From an uncultured Prochlorococcus sp. (lineage in GTDB: Bacteria > Cyanobacteriota > Cyanobacteriia > PCC-6307 > Cyanobiaceae): a stretch of DNA of 64,000 nucleotides. The stretch lies in NCBI GenBank assembly GCA_902618335.1, contig CACNAI010000001.1:1-64000 (forward strand), in the 5' to 3' direction. This document shows positions 5,277-7,458 of this stretch, piece by piece (the stretch's first letter is position 1; each line of letters begins with the position of its first letter). A program made the position numbers and the translations under genes. The notes below the pieces were generated by a model that was given only the letters and a program-made list of their open reading frames with translations, had not been told where the DNA came from and ran no database searches.

Positions 5277-6431
5277 TTAAAAATTATTTTTTGAATAATT
5301 TTCTAATATTCTCTGATTGATTTTCGGAATATTTTCTTTAAATTTGAAAAATCCTTTTTTGGCGAATTTCCAAGCAAATAAATCTTCATCTCTAACAAGG
5401 TTAAAAATTTTTTTATGGTGTAAATTTTTAAACTTAGTTATGAAATCATAATTTTCTCCCACTCCAGGATAAATAATGTCTATTTCGTTGGTATTTTTAA
5501 AAGTATTTTCCAGTGAATTTGGAGAAATCTGTTCAACATTATCAAAATCCTCTACAAATTCAGAGACCAAATCTTGTTTAAATTTCAAAACAGATTCAGA
5601 CAATTTAATTTGTCTTTGTTCATTTTTTAAAAGGATAATAAATACTTTTTTATAGCTTGAAAGTAAATTTTTAAGGGTTGCAAGGTGCAGATCATTTTCA
5701 AACATAATCAGATTATCTGATTTAGGGTACATATCATTTTTATAAATCTCATCTTCTAATGGTATTTGATTAGATTCTTCAAGAAAAATTTGTTTATTAC
5801 TGATTTTTTCTGAATTAAATCTATTGTTTGAAAATTTCCTGAGGTTTGATGATGAAAAAAGATATTGTTTTCCCTTCGTTTGCAATCCTCCAACCCATCT
5901 CCAGCTAAGGAGATTAGATGCAGCATCACCATCAAAAAGATATTTAAAGAAAAACTTTGCTCCCAATTGCCATGGAAGGCCTAAATTAAATATCCAAGTA
6001 CTCGCAAACCACATTCTTGTATGGTTATGCAAATAGTTGTAGTGCTTTAATTCATGTACCCAAGAATTAAAAAAATCTAATTCTGTATTTCCATTTATTG
6101 CACGTTCATATAGCTCATAATCAAAATCGAGATTGTTTTCTGAAATAAAATTTCTCCAAACTTTAGGTCTATTTTCCATCCACCCTTTCCAGTAAACTCT
6201 CCAAAATATTTCTTCAACAAATTTAGTTGAATTTTTGATTTTGTACTTACTTTTAATATCATGAATCAGATCATATTCCGATAAAATTCTATGAGTAATG
6301 AAAGGCGATAATTTTGAAACTGAACTTTCGTTATTTGGCCCAAAATCAAAATTTCTTAATTTTGCATAATCATTAATTTTGTATTTCGCAAAATTTTCCC
6401 AGGTATTTTGAGCTTTTAATAAAAATGACAT
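5277..6431 (-). CDS. photolyase/cryptochrome-like FAD-binding protein with unusual domain order
   Basis: LSPFITHRILS, EEIFWRVYWKGW, YLHNHTRMWFASTWIF, YLFDGDAASNLLSWRWVGG; Rossmann-like segment C-terminal. Confidence 0.85.
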   Translation of the reverse strand: MSFLLKAQNTWENFAKYKINDYAKLRNFDFGPNNESSVSKLSPFITHRILSEYDLIHDIKSKYKIKNSTKFVEEIFWRVYWKGWMENRPKVWRNFISENNLDFDYELYERAINGNTELDFFNSWVHELKHYNYLHNHTRMWFASTWIFNLGLPWQLGAKFFFKYLFDGDAASNLLSWRWVGGLQTKGKQYLFSSSNLRKFSNNRFNSEKISNKQIFLEESNQIPLEDEIYKNDMYPKSDNLIMFENDLHLATLKNLLSSYKKVFIILLKNEQRQIKLSESVLKFKQDLVSEFVEDFDNVEQISPNSLENTFKNTNEIDIIYPGVGENYDFITKFKNLHHKKIFNLVRDEDLFAWKFAKKGFFKFKENIPKINQRILENYSKNNF

Positions 6432-6708: not shown

Positions 6709-7458
6709 ATGAATAATTTAATAGTGAGAGATGTTAAGTATCTTGATGAACAATACAGAATAGGTGAAGGCATAATTTCGGATGGCGCATTTAAGCAACT
6801 TGAAAAGCTCTTTATTCCTGTTAATTCAGAGCCTGACTACTTTAATCAAAAAAATAATAAACATTTGCCAAAATTAGCTAAAGAAAACTATAAAGAATTT
6901 TTGAAAAGTTTATTAACAAAAACAAGATTAAGCATTCAACCAAAAATTGATGGCTGTGCTATTGCAATTAAATATATAGATGGCAATTTTATTAAAGCTA
7001 TTACAAAAAAAGGATTAGATGTCTCAAGCAAAATTAAACAAATTAAAAATGTCCCCGATTCTATTCCTATCAAACGAGATTTTCAAATTAGAGGGGAACT
7101 ATACGCTACAAACCAAGTTGCCGGCATTTCCCAAAGAATTACAAGAAAATACCTCAATGATAAGAAAGGGATTGGAGAAAGTCTCCGCTTTTGCTGTTTC
7201 CAAATACTTAATGGAAGACTTAATCAATACGAAACCCTTAACTATCTTAAAAAATGTGGCTTCAGCACCCCTGAAAGTTACTTCACAAATCATACAAGCG
7301 AAATCCAAATATATAAAAAAAATTGGTTAAAGAGAAAAATATTTGCGAAATATCCAACTAATGGGATAGTTATAAAAATAAATAGTAGGAAATTACAGTT
7401 ACTTAGAGAGAAAAGTTTATTTCAAAATAACGAATGGCAATATGCAATTCAAAAATAA
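6709..7458 (+). CDS. truncated NAD+-dependent DNA ligase-like protein (domain Ia plus adenylation domain only)
   Basis: IISDGAFKQLEKL; motif I PKIDG; IRGELYA; NGIVIKIN; ends at EWQYAIQK. Confidence 0.8.
   Translation: MNNLIVRDVKYLDEQYRIGEGIISDGAFKQLEKLFIPVNSEPDYFNQKNNKHLPKLAKENYKEFLKSLLTKTRLSIQPKIDGCAIAIKYIDGNFIKAITKKGLDVSSKIKQIKNVPDSIPIKRDFQIRGELYATNQVAGISQRITRKYLNDKKGIGESLRFCCFQILNGRLNQYETLNYLKKCGFSTPESYFTNHTSEIQIYKKNWLKRKIFAKYPTNGIVIKINSRKLQLLREKSLFQNNEWQYAIQK

Follow-up and report, generated by a model that had tools for sequence, protein, structure and literature searches.

The minus strand of the analysed stretch of DNA (64,000 nucleotides, in the following called the window) encodes a protein of the photolyase family in which the FAD domain comes first and an alpha/beta domain last. 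We identify the gene with high confidence as Prochlorococcus phr7, which belongs to the reverse-topology photolyases (NewPHL) and whose product probably repairs cyclobutane pyrimidine dimers (CPDs) by means of FAD, preferentially in single-stranded DNA (ssDNA), with the C-terminal domain (Z-domain) likely acting as a lid. Both the reverse-order class and the Prochlorococcus gene are already known, having been described between 2020 and 2022.

Among the eight photolyase-family proteins of marine picocyanobacteria described by Haney et al. 2022 (PMC9426592), the gene is named phr7, its reversed order is given, and it is equated with the ssDNA CPD photolyases (NewPHL) of Emmerich et al. 2020 (NAR gkaa1147); the illustrated Phr7 comes from strain MIT9302. 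Repair of CPDs in ssDNA is reported, as cited in the same study, for the homologues from Dinoroseobacter and Methylobacterium, whereas no biochemistry on the Prochlorococcus protein itself was found in the literature. The window protein agrees with the published Phr7 in genus, domain order and content, distribution among high-light (HL) and LLI strains, and lack of Fe-S cysteines. There is no difference of substance, and the window gene constitutes another allele; the protein of the MIT9302 locus is 86% identical to it over 384 aa. The original prediction of a permuted photolyase was right about the reversed order; architecture and gene are already published. For the same reason, a new permuted variant of the short photolyase-like (SPL) proteins, as SePhrC of S. 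elongatus has been called (PMC9178010), was dropped as a candidate. The FAD-domain gene PMM1360 of MED4, for which no partner gene was found and whose diel pattern follows that of phrA (PMC3441193), is most likely phr7 as well.

Domain order, distribution and gene neighbourhood

The reading frame and all peptides quoted in the original prediction are present in the minus-strand translation (Table 1). The sole Pfam domain of the protein is FAD_binding_7 (PF03441; residues 71-197, E 1.7e-14, above the cut-off), and the Pfam search yielded no match to the antenna domain PF00875 anywhere in it. Residues ~13 to ~201 align with the C-terminal catalytic half only of the solved photolyase and cryptochrome structures, and the family profile gives the same alignment. 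The N-terminal ~205 residues correspond to the photolyase FAD/substrate domain, with nothing upstream of it within the protein, as had been predicted; the last ~150 residues are conserved along with the rest of the gene. The reversed order is confirmed as real: a chance reading frame or a frameshift artefact is ruled out by the open frame kept across dozens of genomes, and a truncated class I gene by the domain order and C-terminal domain being kept across phyla. Two further photolyase-family genes exist in the same genome, both of the usual order.

Table 1. Positions of phr7, its parts and the adjoining ligase-like gene in the window
Feature	Position	Strand	Description	Basis
phr7	5277..6431	minus	Reverse-order photolyase, NewPHL class; 384 aa (384 codons), ATG at 6431	
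Catalytic part	5814..6392	minus	Residues ~14-206; FAD and CPD binding (predicted)	PF03441, photolyase alignment
Linker	5727..5813	minus	Residues ~207-235; variable	Alignment of relatives
Z-domain	5280..5726	minus	Residues 236-384; HUP/Rossmann-like alpha/beta	AlphaFold2, Foldseek, end motif
Short ligase-like gene	6709-7458	plus	249-aa protein; NAD-dependent DNA ligase adenylation domain only	Pfam

The window belongs to the high-light Prochlorococcus, its nearest named relatives being Prochlorococcus single-cell genomes and strains. The genus is represented by 58 other genomes in the search: 54 possess a phr7 homologue of 69-97% identity, one has a homologue of 56% identity, and three contain distant matches only. 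Within the same family, 8 of 11 genomes of a second genus (g3) possess a homologue of 40-43% identity, and several genera searched gave no match. According to PMC9426592, phr7 is present in HL and LLI strains and absent in LLII-LLV strains; presence and absence among the genomes searched here match this pattern, which counts for the identification as phr7.

Outside the cyanobacteria, full-length homologues of the same domain order are situated on plasmids of Ruegeria, Peteryoungia, Niveispirillum, Novosphingobium, and Asticcacaulis, and their annotation, if any, is just "FAD-binding domain-containing protein". With the NewPHL proteins of Dinoroseobacter shibae and Methylobacterium mesophilicum (Emmerich et al. 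2020), the window protein shares the N-terminal FAD domain and the C-terminal Z-domain; its identity to the alphaproteobacterial homologues examined is about 30%, the full-length alignment containing rows from Ruegeria, Peteryoungia, Novosphingobium, and Asticcacaulis, with neither D. shibae nor M. mesophilicum among them. Invariant within the Z region among these proteins are D247, G325, R347, D350, W354, G360, and F361, and the motif R..D...W..A..GFF.FK..IP at the C-terminal end is common to the Prochlorococcus and alphaproteobacterial homologues. In a maximum-likelihood tree of the FAD domain they form one group of 13 rows (support 100/99), separate from a cyanobacterial-Deinococcus group containing Phr4 and SPL proteins (98/95); according to a warning of the tool, a long-branch join with the canonical outgroup is possible in this tree. 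Apart from a single Prochlorococcus-like fragment in the record of a viral contig, no viral relatives of phr7 were found, matches in phages being ordinary distant photolyase matches. The alphaproteobacterial homologues recurrently adjoin genes for DUF3429 proteins (L264 579-3156, L265 549-3124, L262 930-2655), and in Asticcacaulis a gene for an NAD(P)/FAD-dependent oxidoreductase is also situated nearby.

In Prochlorococcus, the neighbourhood of phr7 is kept in 53-56 of 56 loci and comprises, by Pfam names, DUF1295, a pyridoxamine-oxidase-like gene, DoxX, phr7, the short NAD-ligase-like gene, and an SDR. The ligase-like gene adjoins phr7 divergently in 53 of the 56 HL loci. LigA is the near-universal replicative ligase of bacteria. 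The HL genomes checked (G000, G007, G015, G050) contain two or three short ligase-like frames but no full-length LigA; in three of the genomes checked, ATP-dependent ligases (~550 and 444 aa) are present in its place. A survey of 120 genomes for the OB domain of LigA (PF03120) detected it in each of the 83 that belong to 21 other picocyanobacterial genera, there in frames mostly of 680-740 aa, but in none of the 37 from the window's genus, most of which are nearly complete. Judged from these gene contents, this looks like a clade-wide loss of LigA in high-light Prochlorococcus; one paper assumes a replicative NAD-dependent ligase in P. marinus.

Fold and affinities of the C-terminal domain

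Concerning the C-terminal domain, the original prediction of an alpha/beta, Rossmann-like segment agrees with the AlphaFold2 model of residues 232-384, which was computed from close relatives only and exhibits five strands alternating with helices, followed by a helical tail (pLDDT 71, pTM 0.65). The best Foldseek matches of this model in the PDB are phosphopantetheine adenylyltransferases (CoaD/PPAT; E from 1.1e-3, TM about 0.45), the others being further Rossmann-like folds. Photolyases are absent from the top 50 matches; the search with the full-length model returned a single one, 3fy4, at rank 43 (E 0.14). CoaD and the photolyase antenna domain both belong to the HUP fold class, so the Foldseek result is evidence for the fold class but does not single out the family.

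Profiles of the C-terminal domains of Prochlorococcus and of the alphaproteobacteria, of the canonical N-terminal domain, and of an "A" family (the stand-alone or fused Phr5-type alpha/beta domains of other cyanobacteria) were compared with hhalign, with column-shuffled profiles as controls. The Prochlorococcus domain does not rise above the shuffles, 89 of 100 of which score as high against the canonical antenna and 13 of 100 against the Phr5-type profile. In contrast, the alphaproteobacterial Z-domain matches the Phr5-type profile with a probability of 54-59 and E ~1e-4, and the latter matches the canonical antenna over the whole domain with a probability of 96 and E ~1e-9 (2.8e-9), no shuffle out of 100 scoring as high in either case. 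PF00875 is matched individually by 18 of the 21 Phr5-type members (best E 2.7e-5; the match of the member shown does not reach the curated Pfam cut-off). The homology of the Z-domain to antenna domains would thus be an indirect chain by way of the alphaproteobacterial Z-domain and the Phr5-type domains, and a distant common origin is possible.

This chain is also what speaks for the stronger claim of a circular permutation in which the C-terminal domain functions as an antenna and binds a light-harvesting chromophore: the domain is alpha/beta with HUP-like topology, the sister group (Phr6, Phr4+Phr5) has an antenna-type domain in that very position, and the significant matches link the alphaproteobacterial Z-domain to the Phr5-type and the Phr5-type to the antenna. 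We nevertheless consider a working antenna improbable, as the Prochlorococcus domain itself matches neither profile above shuffles and the antenna start motif is not recognisable in it; the likeness to the pattern WFRxDLRxxDN...PFxK that had been suggested, and with it an antenna with a new cofactor arrangement, did not find support.

Active site and function

The residues by which CPD photolyases contact FAD and the CPD are present in the N-terminal domain, with the separate alpha/beta domain following it. In the alignment with canonical photolyases, among them the one from the same genome, E74, W77, N136, M140, W154, D167, D169, N173, W177, and W179 are kept; the aligned columns are presumably those of CPD contact, FAD contact, and electron relay, to which they were assigned by what is known of class I photolyases. 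The class I CPD photolyase of this genome (C26:9608-10174, L001) has a homologous catalytic domain and active-site residues in common with the window protein, but differs in the N-terminal PF00875, the longer FAD domain, and the opposite order. The outermost (third) Trp of the canonical electron-relay triad is Ala111 in the window protein, such that photoreduction must take another route. In the alignment, none of the four positions of the Fe-S cysteine set is Cys in the window protein; Phr6-type relatives possess the invariant cysteines C167, C252, C255, and C262, and in Phr4/SPL relatives three of the four conserved cysteines are situated in the region matching the linker of the window protein.

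By analogy with the family, reduced FAD would absorb blue/UV-A light directly and pass an electron to a CPD in the pocket, preferentially in ssDNA, whereupon the dimer would split and the electron return; the repair activity of the Prochlorococcus protein is likewise derived from the family. The Z-domain most likely lies against the FAD domain, shutting off the flavin pocket, and would thereby take the structural place of the antenna domain, without necessarily possessing a light-harvesting cofactor. Emmerich et al. (2020) reportedly found the FAD site to be sealed by the Z-domain. The full-length AlphaFold2 model of the window protein is poor (mean pLDDT 46.7; its 20 closely related Prochlorococcus rows are too shallow), so that the packing is not seen in it and its inter-domain geometry was not used.

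A cryptochrome-like photoreceptor instead of a repair enzyme is very improbable indeed, since, although the catalytic residues alone do not tell the two apart and the canonical Trp triad is incomplete, the CPD-contacting residues are kept, the characterised relatives repair CPDs (PMC9426592), the strictly low-light clades lack phr7 together with all other photolyases (PMC9426592), as repair predicts, and several genera searched lack a phr7 match.

Split and fused relatives and the origin of the Z-domain

Reverse-order photolyases exist in both split and fused form in Cyanobium/Synechococcus, namely phr4+phr5 and phr6 (PMC9426592). In these and in SPL proteins the FAD domain stands first or alone, and the alpha/beta domain either follows in the same chain or has a gene of its own. 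They differ from the window protein in four cysteines, situated in the FAD domain and just downstream of it and proposed for an Fe-S cluster, and the alpha/beta domain of Phr6 and Phr5 is a clear antenna homologue, whereas that of the window protein is not.

A phylum-wide search with the fused Phr6-type protein yielded a strong SPL/Phr4-type match in 58 of 292 genomes. An antenna-type domain was matched in 56 of these 58, and one more contains a diverged copy directly downstream (57 of 58 in total, counted by hand from the table, the related genomes not being independent); among the genomes listed, none lacking the FAD gene possesses such a domain. Descriptions of SPL proteins state that they have no alpha/beta domain. 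In many filamentous cyanobacteria, the Phr5-like domain is a free gene of ~140 aa (loci L235-L244, L249-L251, L254), situated far from the SPL/Phr4 partner or on another contig (e.g., G378, G300, G364, G271, G444). A programmed frameshift fusing phr4 and phr5, one of the ideas put forward by Haney et al. 2022 (PMC9426592), cannot apply where the genes lie so far apart or on different contigs. The unlinked but co-occurring genes argue for a two-chain photolyase in filamentous cyanobacteria, as far as gene content can indicate it.

Fused reverse-order photolyases of 456 and 472 aa are also found on Deinococcus plasmids (AJ005, wulumuqiensis), whereas in strain QL22 the enzyme is divided between two overlapping plasmid genes (257 + 173 aa); the loci (L255 2917-4287, L256 2914-4332, L257 2908-4199) are annotated as "FAD-binding domain-containing protein" and "hypothetical protein". 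Plasmids of Persicobacter (Bacteroidota) encode an SPL-type protein that is extended at its C-terminus by a segment of alpha/beta appearance (L258 2848-4059, L266 1252-2592), the end of which (FFAFWKK) resembles by eye that of the antenna domain; directly after it comes a photolyase-like gene with its domains in the usual order.

It is a tentative proposal, somewhat less likely than not, that the NewPHL Z-domain, the Phr5/Phr6 domain, and the canonical antenna are one homologous domain, which was once a separate chain and became fused in opposite orders, the Z-domain being an antenna that lost its chromophore and turned into a lid. Fusion would have occurred one way in ordinary photolyases and the other way in Phr6 and Phr7, and the separate-chain state would persist, unlinked from the FAD gene, in many filamentous cyanobacteria.

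A published oddity, the reversed-order photolyases, was thus recovered from raw sequence alone. Whether an antenna was converted into the lid-like Z-domain is an evolutionary question that may be approached by way of the intermediate Phr5/Phr6-type domains and the unlinked split versions.
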